Shown here: in pieces, positions 19,734 through 39,686 of the stretch | Position numbering within the stretch: position 1 is the stretch's first letter | How the letters are laid out: each line of letters starts with the position of its first letter | NCBI RefSeq assembly: GCF_007713685.1 | Contig: NZ_VMRJ01000004.1 | Location: forward strand, 717,700-781,699 | DNA from: Hymenobacter setariae | Lineage (GTDB): Bacteria > Bacteroidota > Bacteroidia > Cytophagales > Hymenobacteraceae | Direction of reading: 5' to 3' | Length of the DNA stretch: 64,000 nucleotides | The notes under the pieces: generated by a model | Database searches by the model: none | Told to the model about the DNA's origin: nothing | What the model saw: only the letters and a program-made list of their open reading frames with translations | Position numbers and translations under genes: made by a program

Positions 19734-19766
19734 GCTTGCTCCAAAGATTAAATCTTTGGAGCAAGC
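19734..19766 (+). other. Perfect 15-bp hairpin between MFS and GH2 genes
   Basis: GCTTGCTCCAAAGAT (19734-19748) pairs without mismatch with ATCTTTGGAGCAAGC (19752-19766) around the loop TAA. It begins three bases after the transporter stop and lies 19 bases before the GH2 start. CTCGTTTACT follows, so the U-tract is weak. It could terminate part of the transcripts or protect the upstream mRNA end. Confidence 0.6.
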
Positions 19767-19785
19767 TCGTTTACTCTCCTTCCGA

Positions 19786-22482: not shown

Positions 22483-24777
22483 GTGTCAATCAAACCACTC
22501 CTTTGTTTAGTTGGATGCCTGCTGGTGGGGCGGGTGGCAGGCGCGCAGTCGGCGGGCGCAGCCTACCCCCTGATTCCGTACCCGACTTCGCTGGTGCCGG
22601 CCAGCGGTAGTTTCGCCGTCACGGGGGCTACCCGCTTGGCGCTACCAGTTGGGGACAAGTTCGCGCAGGAGGGCCAGCAGCTACAGCACCTGCTGGCCAA
22701 CGGCCTGGGCAAGCCGCTGCCGACCGCTAAGCTGGCCACTGCCAACAGCATCGCGCTAGTGTACGACCCGGCCATTACGGCGCCCGAGGGCTACCGCCTC
22801 ACCATCACGCCCCAACGCGTGACGCTGGCGGCCAAGGAACCAGCTGGCATGTTCCGGGCGGTGCAAACGGTGCGGCAGTTGCTGCCTCCCACCATCGAGA
22901 AGCTAGGTAAGGCCACTACTTTGCGCCTGCCCGCCGTGCAGATTCAAGACCAGCCGGCCTATAGCTGGCGCGGCATGCACCTCGACGTATCGCGCCATTT
23001 TTTCTCGGTCGAGTACCTCAAAAAGTACCTCGACCTACTGGCGCTCTACAAGTTCAACAAGCTGCACCTGCACCTGACCGACGACCAGGGCTGGCGCATC
23101 GAGATTAAGAAATACCCCGAGCTAACCACCCTAGGAGGCTGGCGCACGCTCAATAACCAGGATTCGGCCTGCATCAAGAAATCGAAGGATAACCCCGATT
23201 TCGCTCTCGACCTCAAGCACCTGCGCCAGCGCAACGGCCGCACCGAGTACGGCGGCTTTTACACCCAGCAGCAGCTCAAAGACATCATTGCCTTCGCGGC
23301 GGCGCGGCACATCGAAATCATCCCCGAAATCGACATGCCCGGCCACATGATGGCCGCCCTGCGCGCCTACCCCGCTCTGAGCTGCACCGGCACCGCTACC
23401 TGGGGCAAGGAGTTTTCGGTGCCGCTGTGCCCTTGCAACGAGGGCACCTACGAGTTTGCCCAAAACGTGCTGAGCGAGGTGGCCGCCCTCTTCCCGAGCC
23501 GCTACGTGCATATCGGCGCCGACGAGGTGGAAAAAACCACCTGGGCCCAGGCCGGCGCCTGTACTGAGTTGATGCAAAAAGAAGGCCTCAAGAACGTGAA
23601 TGAGCTGCAGAGCTACTTCGTGCGCCGCATCGAGCGCTTTTTGCAGAGTAAGGGCAAAAAGATGATAGGCTGGGATGAGGTGCTCGACGGCGGCGTAGAT
23701 GCCTCGGCTACCGTGATGTATTGGCGCACCTGGGTGCCCGACGCGCCGCTGCGCGCTGCCCGCAACGGCAACCAGGTCGTAATGACCCCCAACAATCCGC
23801 TGTACTTCGACTACCTACCCGATAAAAACTCGCTGGCCCAGGTTTACCAGCTCCAGCCTACCCCCCCAGCGCTGCTGGGCACCGACGCCGCGAAAGCCAT
23901 CCTAGGTGCCCAGGCCAACCTCTGGACCGAGCAAGTGCCCACCGAAAACCGCGCCGATTATATGGTGCTGCCCCGCATGACGGCCCTAGCCGAAGTGGTG
24001 TGGACCAACAAGCCCGACTTCGCGGCCTACCAGCGGCGCCTGAAAGCGCACTACCCTCGCCTAGGCAAGTTGGGAGTGCACTATCGCGTGCCCGACCTAG
24101 GTGGTTTCGTCGAGGAAAGCGTCTTCACGACCAGCACCCAGCTAGCGGTGCAAAAGCCGCTCGACAACCTGACGCTGCGCTACACCACCGACGGCAGCGT
24201 GCCCACCGCCGCTTCTCCGGTGCTGGCCAAGCCCCTAGCCATTAGCCAGCCCACGACCATCAAGCTGGCCGCCTACACCCCCGAGGGTCTGAAAGGCGAC
24301 ACCTACACCATTAATTACAAACAGCAGAACTACGCTGAACCGGCGCGCACCCAAGCAGCTAATGCTGGCCTCATGGCCACCTATTTCGACGGCTATTTCC
24401 CAAAGTCGGCCGCGATGCAGCAGGCCACGGCCAAGGGCAGCACTGTAGTAAACGCCGTAGCCGTGCCCATGCAGGCCGAGACTGATAAATTCGGGGTGCA
24501 GTTCCGCGGCTACCTCGACGTACCGACTACTGGCATCTACACCTTCTACCTGACCTGTGACGACGGTGGCGTACTACGCATTGCTGACCGCATGGTGGTG
24601 GATAACGGCGGCCTGCACTCAGCCATTGAGAAGAGCGGCCAAGTGGCCTTGGCCCAAGGTTTGCAGCCCTTCGCGCTCGACTTCGTGGAGGGCGGCGGCG
24701 GGTATTCGCTCCTTCTGAAATACAGCCTTAACGGCAGCGCACCACAGCCCTTGCCAGCCGGCTGGCTCCGACATTAA
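22483..24777 (+). CDS. Secreted beta-N-acetylhexosaminidase, GH20, with C-terminal PA14 domain
   Basis: Translation starts at GTG 22483, 24 bases after the GH2 stop, and gives a signal peptide (MSIKPLLCLVGCLLVGRVAGAQ). Of 764 residues, about 28-160 form the GH20b domain and 165-530 the catalytic barrel. The barrel has HLTDDQGWRIEI and the catalytic Asp347-Glu348 in HIGADEVEKTTW. Then comes a chitobiase C-like region (LRYTTDGSVPTAAS). Residues about 630-760 are a PA14-type beta barrel: GLMATYFDGYFP, VQFRGYLDVPTTGIYTFYL, DDGGVLRIADRMVVDNGG. The PA14 module probably binds glycan. The first GH20 lacks it, so the two hexosaminidases likely differ in substrate. Confidence 0.94.
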   Translation: MSIKPLLCLVGCLLVGRVAGAQSAGAAYPLIPYPTSLVPASGSFAVTGATRLALPVGDKFAQEGQQLQHLLANGLGKPLPTAKLATANSIALVYDPAITAPEGYRLTITPQRVTLAAKEPAGMFRAVQTVRQLLPPTIEKLGKATTLRLPAVQIQDQPAYSWRGMHLDVSRHFFSVEYLKKYLDLLALYKFNKLHLHLTDDQGWRIEIKKYPELTTLGGWRTLNNQDSACIKKSKDNPDFALDLKHLRQRNGRTEYGGFYTQQQLKDIIAFAAARHIEIIPEIDMPGHMMAALRAYPALSCTGTATWGKEFSVPLCPCNEGTYEFAQNVLSEVAALFPSRYVHIGADEVEKTTWAQAGACTELMQKEGLKNVNELQSYFVRRIERFLQSKGKKMIGWDEVLDGGVDASATVMYWRTWVPDAPLRAARNGNQVVMTPNNPLYFDYLPDKNSLAQVYQLQPTPPALLGTDAAKAILGAQANLWTEQVPTENRADYMVLPRMTALAEVVWTNKPDFAAYQRRLKAHYPRLGKLGVHYRVPDLGGFVEESVFTTSTQLAVQKPLDNLTLRYTTDGSVPTAASPVLAKPLAISQPTTIKLAAYTPEGLKGDTYTINYKQQNYAEPARTQAANAGLMATYFDGYFPKSAAMQQATAKGSTVVNAVAVPMQAETDKFGVQFRGYLDVPTTGIYTFYLTCDDGGVLRIADRMVVDNGGLHSAIEKSGQVALAQGLQPFALDFVEGGGGYSLLLKYSLNGSAPQPLPAGWLRH

Positions 24778-24865
24778 GTTGCTTACTACTTGTTCATTAT
24801 CCCCTAGGCCCTCCTAACTAGGCTTTGCTCTCCCCCTCTCCGCTTCAGTTGATTTTGTGCGTTTT

Positions 24866-27169
24866 ATGAAGTTCTACCCCACCCAATTTCATTTTTCAGC
24901 AGCCGCGTTGGCTTGCAGCATTGCGGCCTTAACCGCCGCGGCTGGCACCCCGCCGCGCAAGGCACCGCGCCCAGCCCCGGCGGCCGGTCTCACGCAGTAT
25001 GTGGACCCCTATATCGGCACTGGGTTTCACGGCCACGTGTTTCTAGGGGCCAATGTGCCATTTGGGGGGGTGCAGCTCGGTCCGGTTAACCGCTCGGAGG
25101 GCTGGGATTGGTGCTCGGGCTATCATTACTCGGATTCTACCATCGTGGGCTTTTCGCACACGCACCTTAGCGGCACCGGTATCGGCGACCTAGGCGATGT
25201 AGCCGTGATGCCCACCACCGGCGAAGTACGAGTAGTAAAAGGCACTCCTAAAAATCCGCAGAAGGGTTTCATTTCGCTGTTTTCGCATAAAGAGGAGCAG
25301 GTGCGCCCCGGCTACTACAGCGTGCGCCTCAAGCGCTACAACATTAAGGCCGAGCTGACGGCCACAGAGCGGGTGGGTTTCCACCAGTACACTTTCCCTA
25401 AGTCTGACGCGGCGCACTTCGTGTTCGACTTGCAGCAGGGCATCGGCTGGGACCTAGCTACCGATACCCACATCGAAAAGCTCAACGACAGCACCCTGGT
25501 AGGCTACCGCTTCTCCAAGGGCTGGGCCAAGGACCAACGCCTGTACTTCGCGGCCGTCTTGTCGAAGCCCATCCGCGAGTTCACCAGCTTGCAGGTAACG
25601 GATAGTCTAGGCAATACCACGCCTGCTGCTAGCGGCAACCGGCTAAAAGGCGTCGTCACGTTCACTACCAAAGAAGGCGAAGTAGTGAAGCTAAAAGTCG
25701 GCATCTCGCCCGTGAGCACTACGGGCGCGCTAGCCAACATCCGGGCCGAACTACCGGGCTGGAACTTCACCAAAACCGTAGCCCAGGCCGACGCAGCCTG
25801 GAACCAGGAGCTGCAAAAGGTGCGCATTCAGGCCGACCCAGCCCGCATGAAGACCTTCTACACGGCGCTCTACCACACGATGGTAGCTCCGTCTATCTTC
25901 AACGACCACAACGGTGATTACTGGGGCACTGATAAGAAGGTGCACACCAATCCCGGCTTCACCAACCTCACTACCTTCTCGCTCTGGGATACCTACCGGG
26001 CAGCACACCCGCTGTTAACCCTGCTCCAGCCCAAGCGCGTCAACGACATGGTGCAGAGTATGCTGGCTATCTACCAGCAGCAGGGCAAGCTGCCCGTGTG
26101 GCACCTTATGGCCAACGAAACCAACTGCATGGTCGGCTACAGCGCCGTGCCGGTAGTGGTCGATGCCTACATGAAAGGCTTTAAAGGCTTCGACGCTAAC
26201 CTAGCCTACGAGGCCGTGAAAGCCACTGCCATGGGCGACGAGTTCGGCTTGAAGTCGGTAAAGGCCCTAGGGTTCATTCCGGCCGACAGCGAGGTCGAGA
26301 ACGTGTCGAAAGGTCTCGAATATGCCATCGACGACTGGTGCATCGCACAGATGGCCAAGAAGATGGGCAAGGCCGACGACTACGCCTACTTCAGCAAGCG
26401 CGCCAAAAACTACCAGAACTACTTCGACAAGCGCGTGGGCTTCATGCGCGGCCGCGTGTCCCAGACCGAGTGGCGCACGCCGTTTAGCCCGTTCTCGTCG
26501 GTGCACATGAAAAGCGACTTCACCGAGGGCAACGCCTGGCAGTACACTTGGCTAGTGCCGCAAGACGTGGAAGGCCTCATCGGCCTCCTAGGGGGCGAAA
26601 AGCGCTTTACCCAAAAGCTTGATTCGCTGTTCACGGTGAAGGGCGACATGGGTGCCGAGGCTTCGCCCGATATCTCGGGTCTTATCGGTATGTATGCGCA
26701 CGGCAACGAGCCGGGCCACCACATCACTTACCTCTACAGCTACGTAGGCCAGCCTTGGAAGACGGCCGAAAAGGTCCGCTTCATCACCGATAACTTCTAT
26801 ACTACCAAGCCCGACGGTATCATCGGCAACGAAGACGTAGGCCAAATGTCGGCTTGGCACGTGCTCTCGACCCTAGGCTTCTACCAGCCCAACCCGGCTA
26901 ACGGCAACTTCGTCTTCGGCAGCCCCTCGGTCAATCAGGCTATCATTGCCCTGGGCGGTGGCAAAACGCTAACCATCAACGCAAAGAATAACAGTACCGC
27001 CAACAAGTACATTCAGCGCGTGACGCTCAATGGCAAGCCTTACAGCAAGTCCTACATCCGGCACCAAGACCTACTGCAAGGTGGCACACTAGTGATGGAG
27101 ATGGGCCCCAAGCCTAGTCCTACCTGGGGCGTGGCTCCGGCCGACCGGCCCAAGTCGATGATGAATTAA
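24866..27169 (+). CDS. Secreted alpha-mannosidase, GH92
   Basis: The ATG at 24866 is preferred to an in-frame GTG three codons upstream. The 767-residue protein has a signal sequence and then the GH92 opening VDPYIGTGFHGHVFLGANVPFGGVQLGP. Further GH92 marks are GWDWCSGYHYSDSTIVGFSHTHLSGTG (about 75-100), LWDTYRAAHPL (about 375) and GNEDVGQMSAWHVLSTLGFY (about 655). The GNEDxGQMS motif holds the calcium-site and catalytic residues of the family. GH92 enzymes are calcium-dependent exo-alpha-mannosidases, mostly alpha-1,2 or alpha-1,3, acting on N-glycans. It is the last enzyme before the SusC gene. A 660-base gap follows. Confidence 0.93.
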   Translation: MKFYPTQFHFSAAALACSIAALTAAAGTPPRKAPRPAPAAGLTQYVDPYIGTGFHGHVFLGANVPFGGVQLGPVNRSEGWDWCSGYHYSDSTIVGFSHTHLSGTGIGDLGDVAVMPTTGEVRVVKGTPKNPQKGFISLFSHKEEQVRPGYYSVRLKRYNIKAELTATERVGFHQYTFPKSDAAHFVFDLQQGIGWDLATDTHIEKLNDSTLVGYRFSKGWAKDQRLYFAAVLSKPIREFTSLQVTDSLGNTTPAASGNRLKGVVTFTTKEGEVVKLKVGISPVSTTGALANIRAELPGWNFTKTVAQADAAWNQELQKVRIQADPARMKTFYTALYHTMVAPSIFNDHNGDYWGTDKKVHTNPGFTNLTTFSLWDTYRAAHPLLTLLQPKRVNDMVQSMLAIYQQQGKLPVWHLMANETNCMVGYSAVPVVVDAYMKGFKGFDANLAYEAVKATAMGDEFGLKSVKALGFIPADSEVENVSKGLEYAIDDWCIAQMAKKMGKADDYAYFSKRAKNYQNYFDKRVGFMRGRVSQTEWRTPFSPFSSVHMKSDFTEGNAWQYTWLVPQDVEGLIGLLGGEKRFTQKLDSLFTVKGDMGAEASPDISGLIGMYAHGNEPGHHITYLYSYVGQPWKTAEKVRFITDNFYTTKPDGIIGNEDVGQMSAWHVLSTLGFYQPNPANGNFVFGSPSVNQAIIALGGGKTLTINAKNNSTANKYIQRVTLNGKPYSKSYIRHQDLLQGGTLVMEMGPKPSPTWGVAPADRPKSMMN

Positions 27170-27396: not shown

Positions 27397-27828
27397 AGTT
27401 AATTTTTTATCAATTTTTTAAATTGATATTAGAAGTTGACACAAAGAGTATTACCTTGACGCATTCAGCTTACCGCACACTTAAAGCACCCCTAGGTTTA
27501 CGGGGTAATGGAGTAGTGCCAAGTGTCTTGGCCCAAGCTTGTTCCTCCCGTAAAATTTATATTTATGAAGTAGTGCGTCAGAGGCCTGCTTTACTAATAT
27601 GATGCACTTGAAGGCACTACGTTGAGAACGATACTTCTCGCAGCGTTTTCTTATTTCCTGGTTAATTCTCCGCTTGCATCTGGCACCAATGAAGCTTAGT
27701 GTCAGCGTCGAGCAGTGCTTTTTCTTCGATAAGCTGCCATTTCCTTCCCACCACCGGTTCGCTACCGGTTGCCTCTCGTTCCACCAGTTCAATTTACCCC
27801 ACATTTCCCTCACCTTACCCAACCTGCC
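27397..27828 (+). other. Long untranslated leader of the SusC/SusD transcript
   Basis: About 430 bases lie between the consensus promoter and the SusC ATG. No ORF here has coding character. Local pairings can be seen, such as ACCCC/GGGGT around a CCTAGG site at 27488-27506, and GTGC/GCAC elements further on. Long leaders with regulatory RNAs are known from some Bacteroides PULs; whether this one is such a case cannot be read from the sequence alone. Confidence 0.4.
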
Positions 27829-30800
27829 ATGAGAAGAACCATACATTTACTTGTCCTACTCTTGCTGCTTTGTCAAGGCTATGCCTATGCCCAAGCCAGC
27901 AAGGTTTCTGGTAAGATAACCAGTGCCACCAATGAGCCCCTGATTGGGGTGAGCATCTTGGTAAGTGGTACCACCCAGGGCACCACGTCGGATGTGGACG
28001 GCAACTACGCCGTGAACGTACCTGGCGATGCCACGCTGGTGTTTTCCTACGTGGGCTACGTAAGCCAGACCGTAGAAGTGAAAGGCCGCTCCTCCATCAA
28101 CGTGATTATGGCCGTTGATAATAAGGAGCTCGGCGAGGTCGTAGTAACGGCCCTAGGTATCAAAAAGGACGAGCGTAAAATCGGTTACGCCGTTACGAAA
28201 GTAGATGGCGGCCTGCTCAACGTAGCGCGCGAAACCAACGTGGCCAACTCGCTGCAAGGCCGCGTAGCCGGCCTGAACGTGGCAGGCGCCAGCGGTGGCC
28301 CCGGCTCGTCGGCTCGTCTCAACATCCGGGGCGTAACGTCCTTCTCGGGCACGTCGTCGCCGCTGATTGTTATCAACGGGGTGCCGATGGATAATACCGT
28401 GCGAGGCAGTGCCGGCGAGTGGGGCGGCGCCGACCTAGGCGACGGTATCAGCAACATCAACCCTGATGATATCGAAACGGTGACGGTGCTAAAGGGCTCG
28501 ACGGCTTCGGCTCTGTATGGCGCCCGGGCCGCCAACGGCGTGATTCAAATCACGACCAAGAGCGGCTCGCGTACCAAAACCACGATTGAGTACAACACCA
28601 ACTTCCAGTTTGACCGCGCTGTTGACAACACCAACTTCCAAGACCAGTACGGCCAAGGCAGCCAGAACCTGCGCCCCACCGACAAGGCCTCGGCTATTGT
28701 ATCGGGCAACACGGCTTGGGGTGCCCGCCTAGATGGCGCGCCCACCATCGGTATCGATGGCCAGCAGCACGCTTACTCTAAGGTAAAAGGCAACATCAAC
28801 AACTTCTACCGCACCGCGCCTTCGTGGACTAATACGGTAGCAGTTTCGGGTGGCGGCGAGAAAGGCACCTACCGCCTATCGCTGTCGAATCTAGACAGCA
28901 AGTCTATCCTGCGCAACAGCGGCTTGACGCGTCGCACGATTAACTTCAACACAAACTACGACCTGACTACAAAGCTGAGCTTCAACCTGACCGCCAGCTA
29001 CATCGACCAGCAGGACAAAAACCGCGCGCAACTAAGCGATTCGCCGCTGAACGCTAACAATATCCTGTTCTTGTCGCCCAACATCGACCAGGCAACCTTG
29101 TCGCCCGGCTACGACCCCAACAACAACGGCCTCGAAACCGCTTGGAACTCGGACAGCTACGCTACTAACCCCTGGTTTGTAGTGAACCAGTTTGTGAATG
29201 ACGTGTCGCGCAAGCGCCTCATCAGCTCGCTCTCGGCTCGCTACCAGTTCACCGACTACCTCTCGCTGCTGGGCCGCATCGGCTACGACTACTCTAGCGA
29301 CCGTCGCTTTGGCGTGACGCCCTATGGCACGCTGTACTCGAACGCTGGCGAAGGTGGCCTCGACAACCTGACCCTAGGCAGCCGCCTGGAGATGAACTCT
29401 GACGCTCTCTTGTCGTTCAGCAAGAGCCTGAACCAGGACTTCTCTATCAGCGCCAGCGTAGGTGCCAACTACCGCCGCAACAAGTTCGAGAGCAGCCGCT
29501 TGTACGGCGGGAACTTCATCGTACCTTACCTGTACACGCCCACCAACCTACGTACTCGCAACCTAGAGTACCAGTCGACGGAGCTCGTTACGCCTTCGCT
29601 GTACTACACTGCCGACTTCACGTACAAGTTCTTGACGCTGAGCACCACCGGCCGCTACGACCGTTTCTCGTCGCTGCCCAATGGCAACCGCAGCATCTTT
29701 ACGCCATCGGTAGCTGGTAGCTTCATCTTCTCGGACCTGCTAGACTCTCCGGCCCTGAGCTACGGCAAGCTGCGTGCTTCCTACGCCAAGACCAGCGGCG
29801 AGGCCGCTAACCCTTACTTGACCGACCTGTACTACAACATCGGCAACCCCATCAATGGTGTACCGCGTGCTTCGTACAGCTCGACGCTGCCCAACGCCAA
29901 CCTGCGCCCCTACAACCTGCGCGAGTTTGAAATTGGTACCGAGTTGAAGTTCCTCAACAACCGTATTGGCTTGGACGTGGCGTACTTCAACCGTAAGACC
30001 ACCGGTGAAATTGTAAACGCGGCCTTGTCGGTATCTACGGGCTACGAGGGCACTACCGTGAACCTAGGCTCGACCCTGAACCGCGGTGTAGAACTGGCCC
30101 TGAACGTAGTGCCCATCAAGCGTGGCGCCTTCACCTGGTCGTCGACTTTCAACTTCACCAAGCTGCACAACGAGGTACTGGACATCGACGGCGGCGCCAA
30201 CAACCCGCTGCAAACCGGTACCTACCGCCCCATGAACGGCAACATTGGCATCGTAAAGGGCCTGGCTATCTCGCAGGTGCGGGCCTACGACTACAAGCGC
30301 GATGCTAGCGGCAACGTGATTGTGGGTAGCGATGGCGTGCCGCTGCGCGGCGACTTGAAGCCTATGGGCTCGGGTATTGCTAACCTATTCGGCGGCTGGA
30401 ACAACGATTTCAACTTCGGGAACTTCAGCTTGTCGGCGTTGATTGACTACAAGTTCAACAACAAGATTTTGTCGGCTACCGAGTACTACTCTTACAACCG
30501 TGGCCTCAACCAGGCTACCCTAGTAGGCCGCGAAAGCGGTGTAGTTGCCGAAGGTGTGAAGGAAAACGGTCAGCGCAACGACATCGTGGTACCCGCTTAT
30601 GAGTACTACCCGAAACTGGCTACCAACGTGTCGGCTATCTCGGTGCTCGATGGTAGCTTCATCAAGTTCCGTCAGCTCACGTTTGGCTACACCTTCAACC
30701 AAGCGCTGCTAGCCCGCACGCCGTTCCAGGCCATCACCCTGTCGCTGGTAGGCCGCAACCTGTTCACCATCATGAAGCGCACCGACAACATCGACCCGGA

Positions 30801-30900
30801 AAACACCATCTCGCCCCTGGTTTCTTATGCTGGGGTAGAGGGCGGCTCGCTGCCTTTCACCCGCACGTATGGTGTTACCCTCAATGTTAAATTCAAATAA
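27829..30900 (+). CDS. SusC/RagA-family TonB-dependent outer-membrane transporter
   Basis: The ATG at 27829 gives a signal peptide (MRRTIHLLVLLLLLCQGYAYAQ) and 1023 residues; the frame is open upstream but only through leader sequence. Residues about 27-105 are the carboxypeptidase-regulatory-like domain (SGKITSATNEPLIGVSILVSG), followed by a plug domain (LNIRGVTSFSGTSSPLIVINGVP) and a beta barrel ending in VTLNVKFK. There is no STN domain, so signalling to an anti-sigma factor is not expected. With the adjacent SusD lipoprotein it would form a pedal-bin importer for oligosaccharides, powered by TonB. It sits after, not before, the enzyme genes. Confidence 0.95.
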   Translation: MRRTIHLLVLLLLLCQGYAYAQASKVSGKITSATNEPLIGVSILVSGTTQGTTSDVDGNYAVNVPGDATLVFSYVGYVSQTVEVKGRSSINVIMAVDNKELGEVVVTALGIKKDERKIGYAVTKVDGGLLNVARETNVANSLQGRVAGLNVAGASGGPGSSARLNIRGVTSFSGTSSPLIVINGVPMDNTVRGSAGEWGGADLGDGISNINPDDIETVTVLKGSTASALYGARAANGVIQITTKSGSRTKTTIEYNTNFQFDRAVDNTNFQDQYGQGSQNLRPTDKASAIVSGNTAWGARLDGAPTIGIDGQQHAYSKVKGNINNFYRTAPSWTNTVAVSGGGEKGTYRLSLSNLDSKSILRNSGLTRRTINFNTNYDLTTKLSFNLTASYIDQQDKNRAQLSDSPLNANNILFLSPNIDQATLSPGYDPNNNGLETAWNSDSYATNPWFVVNQFVNDVSRKRLISSLSARYQFTDYLSLLGRIGYDYSSDRRFGVTPYGTLYSNAGEGGLDNLTLGSRLEMNSDALLSFSKSLNQDFSISASVGANYRRNKFESSRLYGGNFIVPYLYTPTNLRTRNLEYQSTELVTPSLYYTADFTYKFLTLSTTGRYDRFSSLPNGNRSIFTPSVAGSFIFSDLLDSPALSYGKLRASYAKTSGEAANPYLTDLYYNIGNPINGVPRASYSSTLPNANLRPYNLREFEIGTELKFLNNRIGLDVAYFNRKTTGEIVNAALSVSTGYEGTTVNLGSTLNRGVELALNVVPIKRGAFTWSSTFNFTKLHNEVLDIDGGANNPLQTGTYRPMNGNIGIVKGLAISQVRAYDYKRDASGNVIVGSDGVPLRGDLKPMGSGIANLFGGWNNDFNFGNFSLSALIDYKFNNKILSATEYYSYNRGLNQATLVGRESGVVAEGVKENGQRNDIVVPAYEYYPKLATNVSAISVLDGSFIKFRQLTFGYTFNQALLARTPFQAITLSLVGRNLFTIMKRTDNIDPENTISPLVSYAGVEGGSLPFTRTYGVTLNVKFK

Positions 30901-30909: not shown

Positions 30910-32505
30910 ATGAGAAAGACAGTTATCTACGCGGCTTTGACGGCCGCCACCTTGTTCAGCACCTCCTGTTCGGAGAAGTATCTGGACGATGTAAACACCA
31001 ACCCTAACGCCGCCTCGGCCACTACCCTAAACCCGAACTACCTGCTTACCGATGGCCAACTGACGTTTGCCAACACGGGGTATGGCGAGCTGCTGTACCC
31101 GGCCCCAGCCATTCAGGCGCTGGCCAGCACGTTCAACTACTACGGCAACGGTGACAAGTACACCAACTCGGGCGGCTTCACGGGCTACCAAGCGTTGCTC
31201 TTCAGCCAAGGCTACACGGCGCTGAGCCGTCTGCAGCAGGCTATCACCGTAGCAAATGCCCAGGGAGCCTCGCGCTACACCAACGTGATTGCCATCAGCA
31301 ATATCATGAGAATCATGATAGTTCAGCGCATCACTGATGCCTACGGCGACGTTCCGTTCTCGCAGGCATTGATGGCCTCGCAGGGCATTACCACGCCCCA
31401 GTACGACAAGCAGCAGGATATTTATCCGGCCATGCTGACGCAGCTTGAAACAGCCATCGCTAGCCTTAGCGCGACGGGCGACAAAGCCTCGGGCGACTTG
31501 CTCTACGGCGGCGACGTGACCCAGTGGAAAAAGCTAGGTTACTCGCTAATGGTGCGCGTGGCCATGCGCATGACTAAGGTGAATCCTACCCTGGCCAAAA
31601 CCTATACGGAGAAGGCCGCGGCTGCTGGTACCATGACCAGCTATACCGATAATGCTGTTGTGCGCGGTGACATTGCCTTCGGCGACACGCAGAATGCGAC
31701 CACTAACGCCCTGCTCACCACCGACGATTTCCGGGAAGTGAAGTGGAGCAAGACCCTTATTGACTACCTGCGCACTACCAATGACCCCCGCCTGGGGGCC
31801 ATTGCCGAAATTCCGGCGGCGGGTGCTACCAACAACGCCAATCAGGCGCTGGTGGGTGACAACACCCCTGCGCTGCAGCGCGGCTTGCCCAATGGCTATG
31901 ACCTGACGGGCGGCACGTTTGACATTCGCAAGCGCACCGATTACCCTGGTGCCACTGGCACTGGTGCCGATGCAGCTCCACTCGGCAACTACTCGCGGCC
32001 CCGTATCGCGGTGTACATTCAGCGCGCGGCTCCCAATTTCCTGCTGACCTACGCCGAAACCGAGCTTCTGCTGGCCGAAGCCGCCAACCGCGGCTGGAGC
32101 GTAGGCGCCAACGCCGCCACGCACTACGCCAACGGCGTGCGCGGGGCGATGCTGTCGCTGTCGCAGTTTGGCACGGCCGGGGCCATAAGCCAAGGCACTA
32201 TCGATGCCTACGTACTGGCCAATCCCCTAGGTGCTACCAACCAGCTCAAGCAAATCAACGAGCAGTATTGGCTGGAAACGTCCACGACCTTCAACTTCAT
32301 TGAGGGCTGGAACAACTGGCGCCGGTCGGGCTACCCCGAGCTGACGCCCGTGAACTACCCCGGCAACGTAACTGGTGGCACTATTCCACGCCGCCTGATT
32401 TACCCGGTTACAGAAGTATCGAACAACCCAGCCGGCTACGCGTCGGGGGTTGCCAGCCTCACCGGCGGCGACCTGCTGACTTCGCGCGTGTGGTGGGATA
32501 AGTAA
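30910..32505 (+). CDS. SusD-like surface glycan-binding lipoprotein
   Basis: The 531-residue protein starts 10 bases after the SusC stop. It has a lipoprotein signal (TLFSTSCSEKYLDDVN) with the lipid-bearing cysteine near residue 20. The SusD mark NTNPNAAS follows, then the helical TPR-like core typical of the SusD-like family (MRIMIVQRITDAYGDVPFSQAL; NFLLTYAETELLLAEAANRGW). The C-terminal part carries WLETSTTFNFIEGWNNWRRSGYP. It caps the SusC barrel and binds the imported glycan. Sequence does not reveal which glycan. A strong terminator follows, so SusC and SusD are the last genes of their transcript. Confidence 0.94.
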   Translation: MRKTVIYAALTAATLFSTSCSEKYLDDVNTNPNAASATTLNPNYLLTDGQLTFANTGYGELLYPAPAIQALASTFNYYGNGDKYTNSGGFTGYQALLFSQGYTALSRLQQAITVANAQGASRYTNVIAISNIMRIMIVQRITDAYGDVPFSQALMASQGITTPQYDKQQDIYPAMLTQLETAIASLSATGDKASGDLLYGGDVTQWKKLGYSLMVRVAMRMTKVNPTLAKTYTEKAAAAGTMTSYTDNAVVRGDIAFGDTQNATTNALLTTDDFREVKWSKTLIDYLRTTNDPRLGAIAEIPAAGATNNANQALVGDNTPALQRGLPNGYDLTGGTFDIRKRTDYPGATGTGADAAPLGNYSRPRIAVYIQRAAPNFLLTYAETELLLAEAANRGWSVGANAATHYANGVRGAMLSLSQFGTAGAISQGTIDAYVLANPLGATNQLKQINEQYWLETSTTFNFIEGWNNWRRSGYPELTPVNYPGNVTGGTIPRRLIYPVTEVSNNPAGYASGVASLTGGDLLTSRVWWDK

Positions 32506-32605: not shown

Positions 32606-33724
32606 ATGACACTATCACGTTCCTTTTTCAGACGGCCCTTCACCGGCCTATTACCGCTATTCCTTGGCCTAGGGGCCGCTACTCCTGTGCTGGCGCAAGC
32701 GCCCTTTGCTGGGCTAGAGGAGCTCTTTACCCCGCCCAAAGGCTACGTGGTGCAGCACACTAGCCAGCCGCTCACGATGGACGGCAACCTGCAAGAGAGC
32801 GACTGGCAAAAAGCCGCCTGGACCACAGACTTCGTAGACATCGAAGGCGCCAAAAAGCCGCTTCCTACATACCAGACGCGCGTGAAAATGCTCTGGAACG
32901 ACTCGACGCTATTTATCGCCGCCACTTTACAGGAGCCGCAGATTTGGGCGTACCAGACGCACCACGACGATATTATTTATAAAGATAACGACTTCGAAGT
33001 CTTTATTGACCCAGATAATAACGCTCACCAGTATTTTGAAGTTGAGGTCAACGCCATCAACAAGATTTTTGACCTGTACCTGCCCAAGCCCTACCGCGAC
33101 AAGGGCGATGCACTCATTAGCTGGGATGTGGCCGGGCTGCGGTCAGGCGTGGCTATCAATGGCACCCTCAACCAACCCCAGGACCAAGACAAGAGCTGGA
33201 CGGTCGAGATGGCCATCCCACTGAAGGCAGTGCGCATGGGCTTTCCGTGGCAGCCCCCCACCGAGGGTACGCTGTGGCGCATCAACTTCTCGAGGGTAGA
33301 GTGGGACACAAAGGCCGAGGGCGATAAAAACGTGAAATTGCAAGATGCCGCCGGCAAAGACCTACCCGAGCACAACTGGGTATGGTCGCCGCAGGGGGTC
33401 ATCAACATGCACTACCCCGAGCGCTGGGGCTACTTGCAGTTTACGCGCCAGGCCAACACCACTTGGCAGATGCCGCAGGCTGAGTTGCGCAAGCAATACC
33501 TATGGCTGGTGTACTACCGCCAGCAAGAGTTTCGGAAAAAGACTGGCAAGTATGCCGCTACCTTGGCCGAACTGAAAATCAAGCCCCAGACCACCGTTGG
33601 CAAGCAGGCCAATCAGCTACAGCTGGCAGCCACACCTTACCAGTTCACTGCCACCATCACGGCAGCCGGCAGCGCTGCCATCCGCATCAACGACGAAGGA
33701 CTAATCGAAACGCTGAAACCATGA
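32606..33724 (+). CDS. Secreted CBM9-like carbohydrate-binding protein
   Basis: The 372-residue protein has a signal peptide (FTGLLPLFLGLGAATPVLAQ). A CBM9-like beta sandwich spans about residues 45-280: LTMDGNLQESDWQKAAWT, VKMLWNDSTLFIAATLQEP, NDFEVFIDPDNNAHQYFEVEVNA, then WTVEMAIPLKAV. The last 80 residues are a separate module (LRKQYLWLVYYRQQEFRKKTGKYAATLAELK). Stand-alone CBM9-like proteins of this type occur near Bacteroidota sugar loci. Its stop overlaps the start of the next gene (ATGA at 33721-33724), so the two products are probably made together. No catalytic residues are recognised; a binding role is inferred. Confidence 0.85.
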   Translation: MTLSRSFFRRPFTGLLPLFLGLGAATPVLAQAPFAGLEELFTPPKGYVVQHTSQPLTMDGNLQESDWQKAAWTTDFVDIEGAKKPLPTYQTRVKMLWNDSTLFIAATLQEPQIWAYQTHHDDIIYKDNDFEVFIDPDNNAHQYFEVEVNAINKIFDLYLPKPYRDKGDALISWDVAGLRSGVAINGTLNQPQDQDKSWTVEMAIPLKAVRMGFPWQPPTEGTLWRINFSRVEWDTKAEGDKNVKLQDAAGKDLPEHNWVWSPQGVINMHYPERWGYLQFTRQANTTWQMPQAELRKQYLWLVYYRQQEFRKKTGKYAATLAELKIKPQTTVGKQANQLQLAATPYQFTATITAAGSAAIRINDEGLIETLKP

Positions 33725-34815
33725 CGAGCCGCCGCAAATTCATTCAAACCAGTGCTGTGCTGGGCCTAGGTGCCCCGCTCCTACCCGGCGCCGCGCAAGC
33801 TGCCCTACCCGCCGCACCCAAAGCTGGCTGGAAGCACTGGGTCTGGACCAACCCTAACCAGAAAGACACGGAGGCCGAGCTGGCTACCCGCTACCGCAAG
33901 TACTACGAAGCTGGCGTGCGCGGCATCTTCTTCGAAGCTGATAGTGAGCGGCACTTCCGCGCTGCCAAGGCGCAGAAGCTCGAAGCCCACCGCTGGATTT
34001 GGACCATGAACCGCGGCGAGAAGTCGCTGCTGGCCGCCCACCCCGAGTGGTATGCCGTGAGCCGCAAGGGCGAGTCGTGCGCCACACACCCGCCTTACGT
34101 GGACTACTACCGCTGGCTGTGCCCCTCGCGCGAGGAGGTAAAGCAGTACCTAGAGCAGGACTATGCCGCCGCGCTTAAGAAAGACTACATCGACGGTATT
34201 CACTTGGACTACGTGCGGTTTTGCGACGTGATTTTGCCCGTGAACCTGTGGGCGAAGTATGGCATTGTGCAAACCAGCGAGCTGCCTGAATACGATTTTT
34301 GCTACTGCCCGGTGTGCAAAGCCGCCTACAAAGCTGAGTACGGCCAGGACATCGACACCGTGCAGTATCCTGAGGCTAGCCCTTCGTGGCGGGCCTTCCG
34401 CTACCAGCGCGTGAACGAGGTAGTGCGCCGGCTCACCAACGTAGCTAAGCAATACCGCAAGCCCATCACGGCTGCCGTGTTCCCGACTCCCGATATTGCC
34501 CACCGCAACGTGAAGCAAGACTGGGTGAATTGGAACATCAGCGGCGTGTGCCCCATGATTTACCACGGCTTCTACAAGGAGAACGTGACCTGGATTGGCC
34601 AAGCCGTGAAGGAAGGTGTGCAGGCCCTGAACGGTAAATTCCCGCTATACGCTGGCCTGTTCTTACCCGATTTTAAAAACGACACCGAAATACAGCAGGG
34701 CATCGAAAACGCGCTTCGCAACGGTGCCGCCGGTGTTTCGCTCTTCGGCGACGTCTCGGATGGCGCGCTAGCCGCGCTCAAAACTGCCTCGGCAAAAAGC
34801 AGCCAGGCGAAGTAA
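33721..34815 (+). CDS. Tat-exported putative glycoside hydrolase (TIM-barrel type)
   Basis: The start at 33721 overlaps the stop of the CBM9-like gene; the frame runs on upstream only inside that gene. The 364-residue protein begins with a twin-arginine signal (MTSRRKFIQTSAVLGLGAP). The mature part resembles the GHL10-like (DUF4985/GH10-like) uncharacterised hydrolases: KHWVWTNPNQKD, GVRGIFFEAD, DYIDGIHLDYVRFCD, then SGVCPMIYHGFYKENVTW. The acidic HLDYVRF strand end is where such barrels carry catalytic acids. A CYCPVCKAAY stretch near 197-206 has two CxxC-like cysteines, unusual for a glycosidase. Tat export suggests folding, or cofactor loading, before secretion. Substrate unknown. Confidence 0.75.
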   Translation: MTSRRKFIQTSAVLGLGAPLLPGAAQAALPAAPKAGWKHWVWTNPNQKDTEAELATRYRKYYEAGVRGIFFEADSERHFRAAKAQKLEAHRWIWTMNRGEKSLLAAHPEWYAVSRKGESCATHPPYVDYYRWLCPSREEVKQYLEQDYAAALKKDYIDGIHLDYVRFCDVILPVNLWAKYGIVQTSELPEYDFCYCPVCKAAYKAEYGQDIDTVQYPEASPSWRAFRYQRVNEVVRRLTNVAKQYRKPITAAVFPTPDIAHRNVKQDWVNWNISGVCPMIYHGFYKENVTWIGQAVKEGVQALNGKFPLYAGLFLPDFKNDTEIQQGIENALRNGAAGVSLFGDVSDGALAALKTASAKSSQAK

Positions 34816-35037: not shown

Positions 35038-38000
35038 ATGCAAACTCGCTGCGCCGTAGTTAGTTGCCGTTTCTTGCTCACACTTGCTTTCCTAGGGCTA
35101 GCCTTAGGCAGTAAGGCACAGCAGCCGCTATTTAGTTTGCTTAGCGCACAGGAAACGGGTATCAGTTTTAATAATGCTGTTAGTGAAAACGAGGCACTCA
35201 ATATTCTATCCTACGAGTACTTCTACAACGGCGGCGGAGTGGCAGTCGGCGACATCAACGGCGACGGCTTAGCTGACCTGTTCTTCACGGGCAATATGCG
35301 TCCTAATCGGCTGTACCTCAACCTAGGCGGCTGCAAGTTCAAGGACATTACCGACCAAGCCGCGCCGGGCCTAGGCGGGCGCAAAGATGGCTGGAAAACC
35401 GGCGTGACGATGGCCGACGTGAACGGCGACGGCCTGCTGGATATCTACGTGTGCTACTCCGGCAAAAAGGCGGAGGAAGTGCGCCGCAACCAGCTATTCA
35501 TCAACCTAGGGAACAGCAAGTTTCAGGAAGAAGCCAAGAGCTACGGCCTCGATGACCCCGGCTACAGCACGCAGGCCGCCTTCTTCGACTATGACAATGA
35601 CGGCGACCTCGACATGTTTTTGCTCAATCACAATATCAAAAAGATTGACAACATGGAGTTTGCCAGCCACAAAAACGAAGTGGACGCCCTAGCTGGCAAC
35701 AAGCTGTTTAAGAACGATAACGGGCACTTCACTGACGTATCAAAAACGGCTGGCATTGTGCAAAGTCCGCTGACGTTTGGCCTAGGTATCGCCGTGGCCG
35801 ACATCAATAAAGATGGCTGGCAGGACATCTACGTGACCAACGATTATAATGAGCCCGACTACCTATACCTAAATAATAAAAACGGCACGTTCAGCGACCA
35901 CTCCAAGCAAATGCTGCGGCACCATTCGCACTTTTCGATGGGCGTGGATATTGCTGATTTTAACAACGATACGCAGCCCGACATTTTCACTCTCGATATG
36001 CTGCCGGCGGACAACCACCGCCAAAAATCGCTGCAATTGCAGGAAAACTACGAGACGTTTGAACTGCTGCGCCAGCAGGAGCTGTACCCGCAGTACATGC
36101 GCAACATGCTGCACCTCAACAACGGTGATGGCACGTTTAGCGAAATCGGGCAGCTGGCGGGCGTGTCGAAAACCGACTGGAGTTGGTGCCCGCTCATTGC
36201 TGATTTTGACAACGATGGCTACAAAGACATTTACATCAGCAACGGCTATTTGCGCGACTACACCAACAAGGATTTTTTGCGCTACTGGGGCGACTACAAA
36301 ATCAAGAAAGCGATGGCCAAGGAGCCCTTTCTGCTGATGGATTTGGTAACGGCGATGCCCTCGACCTCGGTGCCCGATTACATTTTCAAAAACGAGCACA
36401 ACCTGACGTTTTCGAATAAGCAGAAAGAGTGGGGCCTGAACCAAACCAACATGTCGAACGGCGCGATTTATGCCGACCTCGACAATGATGGCGATTTGGA
36501 CTTGGTGGTGAATACCATCAACCAGCCGGCCAGCATCTACCGCAACCACAGCACCGATGCGAACCACACGGCCTACCTAGGGCTAAAGCTGCAAGGCACC
36601 GACAAAAACACCCAGGCTGTAGGCGCCAAGGTCTTTGTGTACACGCCCGGCCAAGTGCAGTATCAGGAGGTAAACCCCAACCGCGGCTACTTGTCGTGCG
36701 TGTCTACGGTGCTGAATTTTGGTCTAGGCACCAACCAGAAGGTCGATTCGGTACGCGTCATTTGGCCCAACCAAACCTCACAACTGCTCACGGGGGTAAA
36801 GGCCAACCAGCTGCTTCAGCTTACGGGCAAGCCAACTGGCAAGCTTGTAGCCAAAGCAGCGTCCGCTACCCCAAAGCAAGTATTTAAGCCCAGCGCGCCG
36901 CTGTTCGATTTCAAGCCCGAGGAAGTGGCCTTGAACGACTTCAAGCGCCAGCTGCTCATGCTGTTCATGTACTCTAAAACTGCGCCGGTGATGGTAAAAG
37001 CCGATGTAAACAAGGACGGCCTGGACGACTTGTTTGTGAGCGGTGCCAAAGACGAAGTAGGCAAGCTCTACCTCCAGCAGCCGGGCGCCAAGTTCGTAGA
37101 AGCTCCCCTAGGTCGCTCCACCAGCTTGCCAATGGGCACCGTGGCGGCCGCGGCGTTTTTCGACGCTACCGGCGACGGCTATCCCGACCTGTACGTGGCC
37201 AAGGGCGGCTACTCGCTCTACGAAGCCGGGCAAGACGACTTGCAGGACGAGTTTTATATCAACGATGGCAAGGGGCATTTTACCTTGTCTACTACGGCCT
37301 TACCCCAGCTCAATGCGAGCAGCAAAAGCTGCGTGCGGGCGGCCGATGCCGACAACGACGGCGATTTGGATATTTTCGTGGGCGGCCGCGTGATACCGGG
37401 CCGCTATCCTATGCCCCCTACCAGCTACCTGCTGCTGAATGACGGCAAAGGCAAGTTTACGGCCGCTACCGTGCCCTTTGCTCAGGCGGGTATGGTCACG
37501 GATGCGCAATGGGTTGACCTGAACAAAGACGGCCGCAAGGACCTCGTGCTGTGCGGCGAAATGATGCCCCTGACCGTGTGGGCTAACACGCCCCAAGGCT
37601 TTAAGGACCAAACCAGCACCTATTTCACCACCCCCCAAACCGGCTTCTGGTTTAGCCTGCACGTGGCCGATGTCAACGCTGATGGACAGCCCGACCTCAT
37701 TGCCGGCAACCTAGGGCTGAACAGCCAACTGCGGGCCACCGCCCAGGAGCCGGCCGCCCTGTACTATGCTGACTTTGACAACAATGGCTCCATCGACCCC
37801 TTCCTGAACTTCTACGTGGATGGCAAAAGCTACCCGTTTGTGAGCCGCGACGAACTGAACGAAGTGATATACCCCATGCGCCGCCGCTTCACCTCTTATA
37901 AGGCCTACGCCGACGCGGTGATGACTGATATTTTTAGCAGCGAGGACCTAGGCAAGGCCGGCAAGCTAGAAGCTACCGAGCTGCGCACCACGCTGTTTCT

Positions 38001-38340
38001 GAATAACAAAGGCACCTTCACTTCCACCGAGCTGCCCGTGGAAGCCCAGTTTTCGATGGTCACTCAGATTACGAGCGGCGACTACAACCACGACGGCCAC
38101 CGCGACTTATTGCTGCTCGGCAACCACACCGACAACCGCCTGAAACTAGGCAGCATGGACGCCAACTATGGCTGCCTGCTGCAGGGCGATGGCAAGGGAC
38201 ACTTCAGCTATGTCAAGCAGCCAGCGGCGGGCATTTGCGTGCTCGGCGACGTGAAGTCGGTAAGCGAAATCACTGTGAATAAGCAGCCTTACTTAGTGGT
38301 AGGCGTGAGCAATGGCCCCGTACAATTTTACAAAGAATAA
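35038..38340 (+). CDS. Large FG-GAP/VCBS repeat protein with ASPIC/UnbV domain
   Basis: The 1100-residue secreted protein has a signal peptide (LLTLAFLGLALGSKAQ). It carries many calcium-binding FG-GAP/VCBS repeats, seen as DxNxDGxxDxF motifs: GDINGDGLADLFFTG, ADVNGDGLLDIYV, FDYDNDGDLDMFLLN, ADINKDGWQDIYV and, in a second set after residue 650, ADVNKDGLDDLFVSG and ADADNDGDLDIFVGG. Between the sets (about 510-590) is an ASPIC/UnbV-type stretch: LKLQGTDKNTQAVGAKVFVY, NPNRGYLSC, VRVIWPNQTSQLL. The repeats predict integrin-alpha-like beta-propellers. Role unknown; probably a surface adhesin or scaffold. The haloperoxidase-like gene starts two bases after its stop, so the pair is one unit. Confidence 0.9.
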   Translation: MQTRCAVVSCRFLLTLAFLGLALGSKAQQPLFSLLSAQETGISFNNAVSENEALNILSYEYFYNGGGVAVGDINGDGLADLFFTGNMRPNRLYLNLGGCKFKDITDQAAPGLGGRKDGWKTGVTMADVNGDGLLDIYVCYSGKKAEEVRRNQLFINLGNSKFQEEAKSYGLDDPGYSTQAAFFDYDNDGDLDMFLLNHNIKKIDNMEFASHKNEVDALAGNKLFKNDNGHFTDVSKTAGIVQSPLTFGLGIAVADINKDGWQDIYVTNDYNEPDYLYLNNKNGTFSDHSKQMLRHHSHFSMGVDIADFNNDTQPDIFTLDMLPADNHRQKSLQLQENYETFELLRQQELYPQYMRNMLHLNNGDGTFSEIGQLAGVSKTDWSWCPLIADFDNDGYKDIYISNGYLRDYTNKDFLRYWGDYKIKKAMAKEPFLLMDLVTAMPSTSVPDYIFKNEHNLTFSNKQKEWGLNQTNMSNGAIYADLDNDGDLDLVVNTINQPASIYRNHSTDANHTAYLGLKLQGTDKNTQAVGAKVFVYTPGQVQYQEVNPNRGYLSCVSTVLNFGLGTNQKVDSVRVIWPNQTSQLLTGVKANQLLQLTGKPTGKLVAKAASATPKQVFKPSAPLFDFKPEEVALNDFKRQLLMLFMYSKTAPVMVKADVNKDGLDDLFVSGAKDEVGKLYLQQPGAKFVEAPLGRSTSLPMGTVAAAAFFDATGDGYPDLYVAKGGYSLYEAGQDDLQDEFYINDGKGHFTLSTTALPQLNASSKSCVRAADADNDGDLDIFVGGRVIPGRYPMPPTSYLLLNDGKGKFTAATVPFAQAGMVTDAQWVDLNKDGRKDLVLCGEMMPLTVWANTPQGFKDQTSTYFTTPQTGFWFSLHVADVNADGQPDLIAGNLGLNSQLRATAQEPAALYYADFDNNGSIDPFLNFYVDGKSYPFVSRDELNEVIYPMRRRFTSYKAYADAVMTDIFSSEDLGKAGKLEATELRTTLFLNNKGTFTSTELPVEAQFSMVTQITSGDYNHDGHRDLLLLGNHTDNRLKLGSMDANYGCLLQGDGKGHFSYVKQPAAGICVLGDVKSVSEITVNKQPYLVVGVSNGPVQFYKE

Positions 38341-38342
38341 CG

Positions 38343-39686
38343 ATGAAGCGCAGTAGTCTGATAGGCCTAGCCCTCGTAGCGCTGACTAGCGGTAAGCTGC
38401 AGGCGCATAACCCACGCCTGGCCGAGCAGCTCGACCCTGGCAAGGCTTTGAATGTCATTAATATGACTATGGTCCACGACGTGGTGAGCCCCCCAGTGGC
38501 GGCCCGCTACTACGCCTACAGCATGCTAGGGGCCTACAGCATCGTGGCAGCGCACACCACGCGCCTGCCCGCACCGCAGCAGCTAGTAAAAGCTTACACT
38601 ACTGACCTGCGCCTCGACACCGTGAAGGCGGCCTACGACTATCAGATTGCCGCTTACTACAGCATCCTCGAAACGGCCCGCCTGCTGCTGCCCTCCGGCG
38701 AGACCCTAGTGGATGAGGAGCAGGATTTTTTGCAATTGCTGACCAAGCAGGGTATTAAGCCCGGTGTGCTGAGCCAATCGGTGCGGGTAGGCAAACTGGC
38801 TGCCGCCGCCGTGGTAAAATTCTCCAAATCTGACAATTACGGGAAGCTGAGCGCGCTCAAGCGCTATACCCCAGTAAAAACAGAGGGCAGTTGGTACCCC
38901 ACGCCCCCCGCCTATCTCGAAGCGGTGGAGCCTAACTGGAAAACCATCCGCCCGCTGCTGATAGACTCGGCCAGCGCCTTCCGGCCGGTGGCGCCTTACC
39001 CTTTTAGCAAGGATACGACCTCGGCCTTTTACCGGGAGGTGTTGGCGGTGTACAAGATTTCGAAGAAGCTGACGCCCGACCAAGTCGAGATAACCCAGTT
39101 TTGGGATTGCAATCCATTTGCCGTCAATACGTCGGGGCACATGTCCATTGGCTTCAAAAAAATCAGCCCCGGCGGGCACTGGATGAATATTGCCGCCTTG
39201 GTAGCCAAACAGCAGAAAGTAGGATTTGACAAAACGGTGTACGTACTCTGCGCCGAAGGCATCACGCTCATGGATGCTTTCATTAGCACCTGGGAAGCCA
39301 AATATGCCACCAACCGCATTCGGCCCGAAACCTACATCAACCGGCACCTAGACGTGAAGTGGCAGCCCGCGCTACAAACGCCGCCTTTCCCTGAGTACAC
39401 CAGCGGGCACGCCGTGGTGTCGAGCGCCTCAGCCGAGGTACTGAGTTATCTGCTAGGCGATAAGGTGGCGTATGTCGATGATACCGAAATTCCCTTTGGC
39501 AGCGGCAAGCGGTCATTTACTTCGTTCCGGCAGGCAGCGGCTGAAGCCTCCATTTCGCGCTTCTACGGCGGCATTCACTACCTCGAAAGCTGCACCAACG
39601 GCAATGCCCAGGGGCAGCGCCTAGGTCGCCACATCGTGTCCGTATTGCGAAAGGCGTCGAGCAAGTCGCTTAGCGTTGCCAAGTAG
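38343..39686 (+). CDS. Vanadium-dependent haloperoxidase / PAP2 superfamily protein
   Basis: The 447-residue protein has a signal peptide (MKRSSLIGLALVALTSGKLQA). It carries the full vanadate/phosphate-binding set: Lys320 and Arg327 in KYATNRIRP, Ser354-Gly355-His356 in FPEYTSGHAV, and Arg406 and His412 in SRFYGGIH. Spacing matches fungal vanadium chloroperoxidase, including a Phe five residues before the Ser. Differences are Thr instead of Pro before SGH, and Ser in place of the final Asp of the PAP2 motif. It could be a true haloperoxidase, or a phosphatase with the same fold. Bacteroidota often pair this gene with an FG-GAP/ASPIC gene, as here (gap of two bases). Function of the pair is unknown. 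Confidence 0.88.
   Translation: MKRSSLIGLALVALTSGKLQAHNPRLAEQLDPGKALNVINMTMVHDVVSPPVAARYYAYSMLGAYSIVAAHTTRLPAPQQLVKAYTTDLRLDTVKAAYDYQIAAYYSILETARLLLPSGETLVDEEQDFLQLLTKQGIKPGVLSQSVRVGKLAAAAVVKFSKSDNYGKLSALKRYTPVKTEGSWYPTPPAYLEAVEPNWKTIRPLLIDSASAFRPVAPYPFSKDTTSAFYREVLAVYKISKKLTPDQVEITQFWDCNPFAVNTSGHMSIGFKKISPGGHWMNIAALVAKQQKVGFDKTVYVLCAEGITLMDAFISTWEAKYATNRIRPETYINRHLDVKWQPALQTPPFPEYTSGHAVVSSASAEVLSYLLGDKVAYVDDTEIPFGSGKRSFTSFRQAAAEASISRFYGGIHYLESCTNGNAQGQRLGRHIVSVLRKASSKSLSVAK

Follow-up and report, generated by a model that had tools for sequence, protein, structure and literature searches.

In a 64,000-nucleotide stretch of the Hymenobacter setariae genome (hereafter the window, which is part of one contig of a 6.1 Mb genome), two adjacent genes encode an FG-GAP/ASPIC repeat protein and a PAP2-type enzyme that together probably form an exported vanadium haloperoxidase module of the kind represented by the Zobellia iodoperoxidase zgVIPO1, with the FG-GAP/ASPIC propeller as the enzyme's usual partner, acting at the cell surface or presenting the target. 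We favour this reading because of the homology and fold of the enzyme, its intact vanadate site, the tight gene order, the co-inheritance of the two proteins and the agreement of their signal types, the SusC/D neighbourhood, and natural fusions in a distant subfamily. A preliminary description of this DNA, made from the sequence alone, had placed the second gene two bases after the first. Both open reading frames (ORFs) are real, and two bases lie between the partner stop (38340) and the enzyme start (38343). At E <= 0.001, the genome holds one match to the enzyme and one full-length match to the partner, together with two additional partner matches, both weak and partial.

When the 447-residue enzyme was compared with the PDB using phmmer, zgVIPO1 (4CIT/4USZ) was matched with an E-value of 1.6e-105, the next match having a value of 0.85. 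The Pfam scan assigned the protein to PAP2 only. Since NCBIfam gave no family for it at E <= 0.01, its naming rests on the PDB match. In the structure predicted by AlphaFold2 (alignment of 28 sequences; mean predicted local distance difference test score, pLDDT, of 86.5), the top fold match was again 4USZ (Z 51.8 over 408 residues, root-mean-square deviation 2.2, 39% identity). The preliminary description had proposed vanadium chloroperoxidase for this structural comparison; the fungal enzyme was recovered at a lower Z of ~28, with bacterial chloroperoxidase at ~30, algal bromoperoxidases at ~18 and acid phosphatases at ~13 to 16. Similarly, a Foldseek search with the model returned 4USZ first, and chloroperoxidases ahead of phosphatases. 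Judged by its sequence, the enzyme is an additional member of the known vanadium haloperoxidase family.

All the vanadate-site residues named in the preliminary description, Lys320, Arg327, Ser354-Gly355-His356, Arg406 and His412, are present in the protein, as is the Phe five residues before Ser354 (Phe349). The claim that they follow the spacing of chloroperoxidase holds inside the motifs but not between them, as R327, H356 and H412 are 29 and 56 residues apart, whereas R360, H404 and H496 of chloroperoxidase (taken from PDB mutant titles) are 44 and 92 apart. The Curvularia inaequalis vanadium chloroperoxidase thus resembles the window enzyme in fold and ligands, and differs from it in inter-motif spacing and size. 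By contrast, zgVIPO1 shares full-length homology, fold, vanadate ligands and their spacing with the window enzyme, as well as the lack of an Asp at the fourth position past the ligand His, and the stretch from Lys320 to His412 aligns to it without a gap. The two differ in that a Tyr of zgVIPO1 aligns with Phe259, and in their source, Zobellia galactanivorans as opposed to Hymenobacter; the N-terminus of the window enzyme, like that of its partner, is a signal-peptide-like stretch in which no lipobox was seen by eye. Across 157 aligned homologues, Lys320, Arg327 and His356 are invariant, Arg406 and His412 are present in 156 (the exception ends at a contig edge), and all seven ligand-motif positions are identical in 146, one sequence being truncated. 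This conservation exceeds chance.

Within the genus, 60 of 120 Hymenobacter genomes have some match to the enzyme and 16, including its own, a close copy (68-100%). One other Hymenobacter genome holds a 98% copy, and the closest named species among the matches listed are Hymenobacter telluris (74%) and H. polaris (69%). As for the halide, zgVIPO1 reportedly has strict iodide specificity. ZgvIPO1 used as a control is described as showing iodoperoxidase activity only (PMC10427571), and since the residues governing halide choice are, in the words of one source, largely unknown (PMC13198595), we make no prediction from individual residues. By analogy with the closest characterised enzyme, which is an iodoperoxidase, iodide is a likelier substrate than chloride or bromide.

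The partner had been described as an 1100-residue calcium-binding repeat protein, in line with which we found FG-GAP repeats, one UnbV_ASPIC domain (PF07593), both above the Pfam cut-off, as well as 14 predicted calcium sites with the loop motif D-x-[DNT]-x-[DN]-x3-D. Among PDB sequences it is matched best by Cartilage acidic protein 1 (CRTAC1, 2.9e-18), and a model of the partner (mean pLDDT 81.1) superimposes on CRTAC1 (PDB 9ETN) with a Z of 44.0 across residues 29-599. For residues 612-1100 there were many propeller matches with Z of ~31 or less; those to LGI1 and aldos-2-ulose dehydratase (Z ~29-31, 10-11% identity) were set aside as generic propeller similarity. As modelled, the partner consists of two beta-propellers, with FG-GAP repeats and one ASPIC/UnbV domain, sharing an FG-GAP propeller and the ASPIC domain with CRTAC1, which lacks the second propeller.

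To survey the pairing across relatives, we examined the best 80 of 587 confirmed loci in GTDB genomes, a named set that is biased toward close relatives, with genes and lipoboxes called by crude scripts. The partner lies directly upstream of the enzyme in 76 of these 80 loci, the others being two Cyclobacterium loci (L082, L089), L110, and L105, in which the contig ends after 700 upstream bases. With start calling as crude as this, 36 of the 76 gene pairs overlap (gap of -4 or -1), and the gap is between -4 and +5 bases in 51. The partner was also present in 9 of 9 other Hymenobacter close loci fetched, and likewise in 13 of 13 close-clade loci (genomes partly overlapping). A phylum sample of 80 non-own matches (E <= 1e-50, 296 genomes, at most five candidates scored per genome) was then divided by profile score, using profiles built from paired loci, which placed 77 of the 80 in the main clade. 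Here, the partner is adjacent upstream in 44 of 77 loci (43 by gene calling and L031 by tblastn), and lies within four genes in 12, while one locus is itself at an edge. Outside this clade, it directly precedes the enzyme in 1 of 14 loci (three from the phylum list and 11 hand-picked). Finally, at E <= 1e-50 the partner was found in 17 of 61 genomes, own included, at up to seven copies each; it is present in 10 of 11 genomes with a haloperoxidase match compared with 7 of 50 without (Fisher 2e-6), implying that the enzyme relies on the partner more than the partner does on the enzyme.

Two further arrangements were seen in these surveys. In one branch of the haloperoxidase clade (L157, L189, L190 and similar), a hydrolase lies between partner and enzyme, either of 674-680 residues (GH65-like in two tested) or of 881 residues (GH116/MGH1-like in one tested). 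In L136, L137, L142 and L148, two unlike haloperoxidases (~440-450 and 513-535 residues) lie one or two genes apart, and the 310-residue gene between them in L136 has no Pfam match.

The two proteins also appear to have been inherited together. In 47 loci with SusC, the distance correlation was 0.90 for partner and enzyme, 0.82 for partner and SusC, and 0.80 for enzyme and SusC; the first was 0.70 once SusC was allowed for, the largest of 999 permutations giving 0.15. Across all 72 full pairs the partner-enzyme correlation was 0.87, and in six within-genome comparisons of duplicate pairs, enzyme and partner had diverged to a similar degree. Moreover, of 65 pairs of plausible length, 61 have matching signal types (26 both lipoprotein-like, 35 neither, 4 mixed), as do 64 of 76 when a cruder lipobox pattern is used, although relatedness among the loci inflates both the correlations and the signal agreement.

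The same association is found beside zgVIPO1 itself. Genome G182 encodes a protein ~98% identical to 4CIT, and is for this reason very probably a Zobellia. Directly upstream of this zgVIPO1 copy lies a 1101-residue partner, 37% identical to the window partner, followed further upstream by a second of 1119 residues and a third FG-GAP/ASPIC frame reaching the edge of the stretch, so that several partner genes stand in a row where the window locus has one. Other neighbours were noted at loci of this general type: in L114, near a zgVIPO1-type locus, a protein with HD and PycTM domains (1192-2394), the Pfam name deriving from a Pycsar effector, is of phage-defence type, and in several flavobacterial-type loci a gene of ~300 residues lies directly 3' of the enzyme, GyrI-like in L114 (7072-7971) and just below cut-off in L018 (2723-3637).

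In addition, the two kinds of domain occur as natural fusions. In locus L187 (genome G045), a weak hit in the phylum sample, a single frame of 1157 residues joins N-terminal FG-GAP repeats to DUF6851 and VCPO_2nd domains, the last just below cut-off. When the bacterial family of G045 was searched with this protein, 96 of 101 genomes matched at E <= 1e-20, many with the haloperoxidase half only, and at least 22 near-full-length matches in 22 genomes were found among the matches listed. All 20 full-length loci fetched (L272-L291, L272 being from G045) encode FG-GAP-haloperoxidase fusions, with about eight calcium-loop motifs and a partner-profile match in the front 480 residues, and with K-x6-RP, SGH and R-x5-H in the haloperoxidase part. 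A further fusion from another family (L247, genome G226) combines FG-GAP, UnbV_ASPIC, DUF6851, a sub-threshold VCPO_2nd and a Por_Secre_tail. Por_Secre_tail is a sorting domain for the type IX secretion route to the cell surface, and its presence points to placement of this protein there. These fusions share both kinds of domain and the ligand motifs with the window pair; unlike the pair, they are single polypeptides, and the window-clade profile matches no more than their C-terminal part. Because FG-GAP propellers are associated with haloperoxidases in two distant subfamilies, physical co-operation is more likely than mere co-regulation. The long frames of L188, L198 and L199 were also examined as candidates and are not fusions; that of L198 is directly followed by a 613-residue FG-GAP/ASPIC gene. 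In the DUF6851-type haloperoxidase of L252 (genome G064), residues 647 onward consist of repeats of a putative metal-binding motif (PF11617, Cu-binding_MopE).

Turning to the surroundings of the pair, the window holds a tandem susC/susD together with glycoside hydrolases (GH), forming a polysaccharide utilisation locus (Table 1). The genes run in the order two GH29, GH35, GH3, ROK, NagB/PIG-L, ROK, GH20, MFS, GH2, GH20, GH92, SusC, SusD, CBM9-like, GHL10-like and then the pair, and in the best reading the pair closes an N-glycan-type locus. In this respect, the window resembles the Bacteroides loci for plant N-glycans, whose enzymes are listed as GH92, GH29, GH3, GH2 and GH20, with SusC/D beside GH92, GH29 and GH3, and GH20 and GH2 brought in in the discussion; unlike the window locus, these are described without the terms 'FG-GAP' or 'PAP2' in the main text (PMC9522356). 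No PNGase was recognised among the window ORFs scanned. The GHL10-like protein has a weak twin-arginine signal match, just below cut-off. A 14-base inverted repeat is present at 34848-34921 and 57158-57228 (five matches in the window with at most one mismatch, against 0.02 expected) and resembles a dispersed intergenic palindrome. Its first occurrence sits in the 222-base gap 5' of the FG-GAP gene, and may separate the haloperoxidase pair from the SusC/D transcript.

Table 1 Genes of the glycan locus and the haloperoxidase pair in the window
Feature	Position	Strand	Remarks
Two GH29 alpha-L-fucosidases	4192..7245 (4192-5772, 5803-7245)	+	
GH35 beta-galactosidase	7331..9205	+	
GH3 enzyme	9225..11609	+	
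GH20 beta-hexosaminidase	16050..18380	+	
GH2 enzyme, exo-glucosaminidase-type Ig domain	19732..22458	+	
GH20 beta-hexosaminidase	22483..24777	+	
GH92 alpha-mannosidase	24857..27169	+	
SusC/RagA TonB-dependent outer-membrane receptor	27769..30900	+	TIGR04056 above cut-off
SusD-like_2 protein	30910..32505	+	PF12771, E 5e-75
CBM9-like protein	32606..33724	+	PF06452
GHL10-like protein	33721..34815	+	Start 33721 chosen, overlapping the CBM9 gene stop; listed ORF from 33502
FG-GAP repeat/UnbV_ASPIC protein, 1100 residues	35038..38340	+	Propellers ~29-505 and 612-1100, ASPIC domain 527-593
Predicted zgVIPO1-type vanadium haloperoxidase, 447 residues	38343..39686	+	Ligands K320, R327, S354-G355-H356, R406, H412

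The preliminary description had the pair following a glycan-uptake locus, and had suggested a survey of how often it occurs near SusC/D. SusC and SusD do precede the pair, which is more than a loose neighbour of such a locus: in many relatives it stands directly behind them. SusC lies three genes upstream of the enzyme in 45 of the 80 named loci, always on the same strand and with the partner in between, and the next gene along carries a SusD label in 27 of these 45 and is unlabelled, with 551-659 residues, in 18. SusC is found anywhere in the stretch in 59 of 80, and in some relatives an Asparaginase_2-type gene is next to the pair or close by. We also compared six hydrolase types, with queries taken mostly from the window, against 20 SusC loci hand-chosen as controls from 56 rows, some of the stretches ending at contig edges. 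At least one type was found in 29 of 80 named loci versus 2 of 20 controls (p 0.03), and at least two in 11 of 80 versus 1 of 20 (p 0.45); for the 13 close-clade loci, the counts were 6 and 5 (p 0.035 and 0.025 versus controls). This modest enrichment gives a weak hint of an N-glycan link for the haloperoxidase clade as a whole.

Could the enzyme instead be an exported PAP2-superfamily phosphatase that dephosphorylates a glycan, glycoprotein or lipid, with haloperoxidase activity as a side reaction of the vanadate-loaded site? In phosphatases, an Asp four residues past the ligand His polarises the catalytic His. The class A acid phosphatases PhoN and PhoC, which have the C-terminal bundle and motif in common with the window enzyme (Z ~16), carry this Asp, whereas the window enzyme has Ser416 at the position. 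Among 14 PAP2 matches in its own genome, we counted the window protein, eight others that bear the motif (searched as S[GS]H then R-x5-H) and five with no usable motif, one of which was no more than a match in another short frame. The Asp (R-x5-H-x3-D) is present in all eight, as opposed to 1 of 156 members of the zgVIPO1 clade, the other 155 having Ala, Ser or Gly. Given this missing Asp and a fold nearest to zgVIPO1 (over three times the Z reached with the acid phosphatases), sequence and model favour a peroxidase over a phosphatase. The vanadate site that the preliminary description read as that of a haloperoxidase is by itself no proof of peroxidase activity, since the ligand motifs are common to haloperoxidases and phosphatases (PMC4859513), but a haloperoxidase remains the better reading with zgVIPO1 as the nearest solved relative. 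A phosphatase would also accord with the Pfam assignment to PAP2 only, with the phosphate intermediate trapped in chloroperoxidase according to the title of PDB entry 3bb0, and with the inclusion in GH92 of a mannose-phosphate-mannose mannosidase (PMC9522356); on balance, we think it unlikely. It is very unlikely that the enzyme uses the haloperoxidase fold for other chemistry, in the manner of NapH3, which catalyses a rearrangement: the presence of NapH3 (8cxl) in the fold list at Z 29.3 means that the fold has been reused, yet the window enzyme keeps the full vanadate ligand set and has an iodoperoxidase as its closest solved relative.

Several observations weigh against a haloperoxidase working with a propeller partner. 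Vanadate-loaded phosphatases can show non-native peroxidase activity, and the Ser or Gly of the SGH motif is altered in 10 of 157 homologues. No oxidase that might supply hydrogen peroxide was seen among those window ORFs that were scanned with Pfam, which were not all of them, and the close-clade species are mostly terrestrial or freshwater organisms, in whose habitats iodide is scarce. In the main clade, 20 of 77 loci lack a partner among the four genes upstream, and in the 12 with a partner at a distance the intervening genes include GH65-type and GH116/MGH1-type hydrolases, so the partner is not required by every main-clade enzyme. Conversely, 7 of 17 partner-bearing genomes have no haloperoxidase match, which implies that the partner has other work as well. 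The subfamily in which the fusions occur (DUF6851, VCPO_2nd) is a distant, chloroperoxidase-like one, and in the phylum sample of this long subfamily only 2 of 20 viewed loci were fused (L242, L247), five others having a partner-like frame nearby on the same strand (L251, L253, L254, L255, L271).

The loci without a nearby partner would be expected if the two genes were chance neighbours within a gene-rich uptake locus, and random pairing in relatives is what the preliminary description had named as telling against a functional pair. However, partner genes number at most seven per genome in the 61 genomes searched and yet directly precede the enzyme in more than half of the main-clade loci sampled, and the reading-frame overlaps, co-inheritance, agreeing signal types and fusions all speak against chance. 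With the named-set, phylum and co-inheritance surveys contradicting it, we regard chance as extremely unlikely. The enzyme might also serve iodine uptake or peroxide removal, with no link to glycans. Arenibacter C-21 requires glucose, oxygen and calcium to take up iodine, a system that generates hydrogen peroxide or oxidises iodide can substitute for the glucose, and the strain has at least five zgVIPO1 homologues (PMC5064120); in Zobellia, vIPO3 is reported to be raised on brown alga relative to alginate (PMC9296495). As this would leave both the SusC/D and hydrolase neighbours and the land and fresh-water species unexplained, it seems to us distinctly unlikely. The calcium need of Arenibacter C-21 fits a calcium-dependent partner, by analogy, without being evidence for one.

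If the pair is an exported haloperoxidase module as we propose, His412 would bind vanadate, with Lys320, Arg327, Ser354-Gly355 and Arg406 keeping it in place, and the site would take up hydrogen peroxide and convert iodide, perhaps bromide, to hypohalous acid. The partner, as a calcium-stabilised double beta-propeller, would probably hold the enzyme at the cell surface or present its target, in many species beside the SusC/D uptake complex, so that the hypohalous acid might act close to a glycan or glycoprotein. In this scheme we infer the halide, the peroxide source, the physical contact within the window pair, the target and the benefit.

In the open-licence literature searched, we found neither FG-GAP, ASPIC/UnbV or VCBS-repeat proteins paired with a haloperoxidase, nor a haloperoxidase together with SusD and polysaccharide utilization, nor CRTAC1 together with bacterial ASPIC. 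The enzyme is known in kind; it is the conserved pairing and fusion of haloperoxidases with FG-GAP/ASPIC propellers that we did not find in that literature. The partner accompanies the enzyme across the Bacteroidota, occurs next to an almost identical copy of the crystallised protein and, in a distant subfamily, is fused to a haloperoxidase; it offers a direct handle on the cellular role of these enzymes. Should the pair act at SusC/D complexes, an oxidative step based on halogens would be added to glycan uptake, and halogen chemistry would have an overlooked source in non-marine bacteria. More tentatively, and with considerable doubt, one can picture a surface haloperoxidase system of the Bacteroidota, encoded as a SusC-SusD-FG-GAP/ASPIC-haloperoxidase row or as a fused protein, in which a propeller-anchored enzyme makes hypohalous acid at the mouth of the uptake complex and so loosens or strips glycoproteins for feeding. 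If true, this would be an oxidative helper of glycan use, in a role comparable to that of the copper monooxygenases of cellulose decay.

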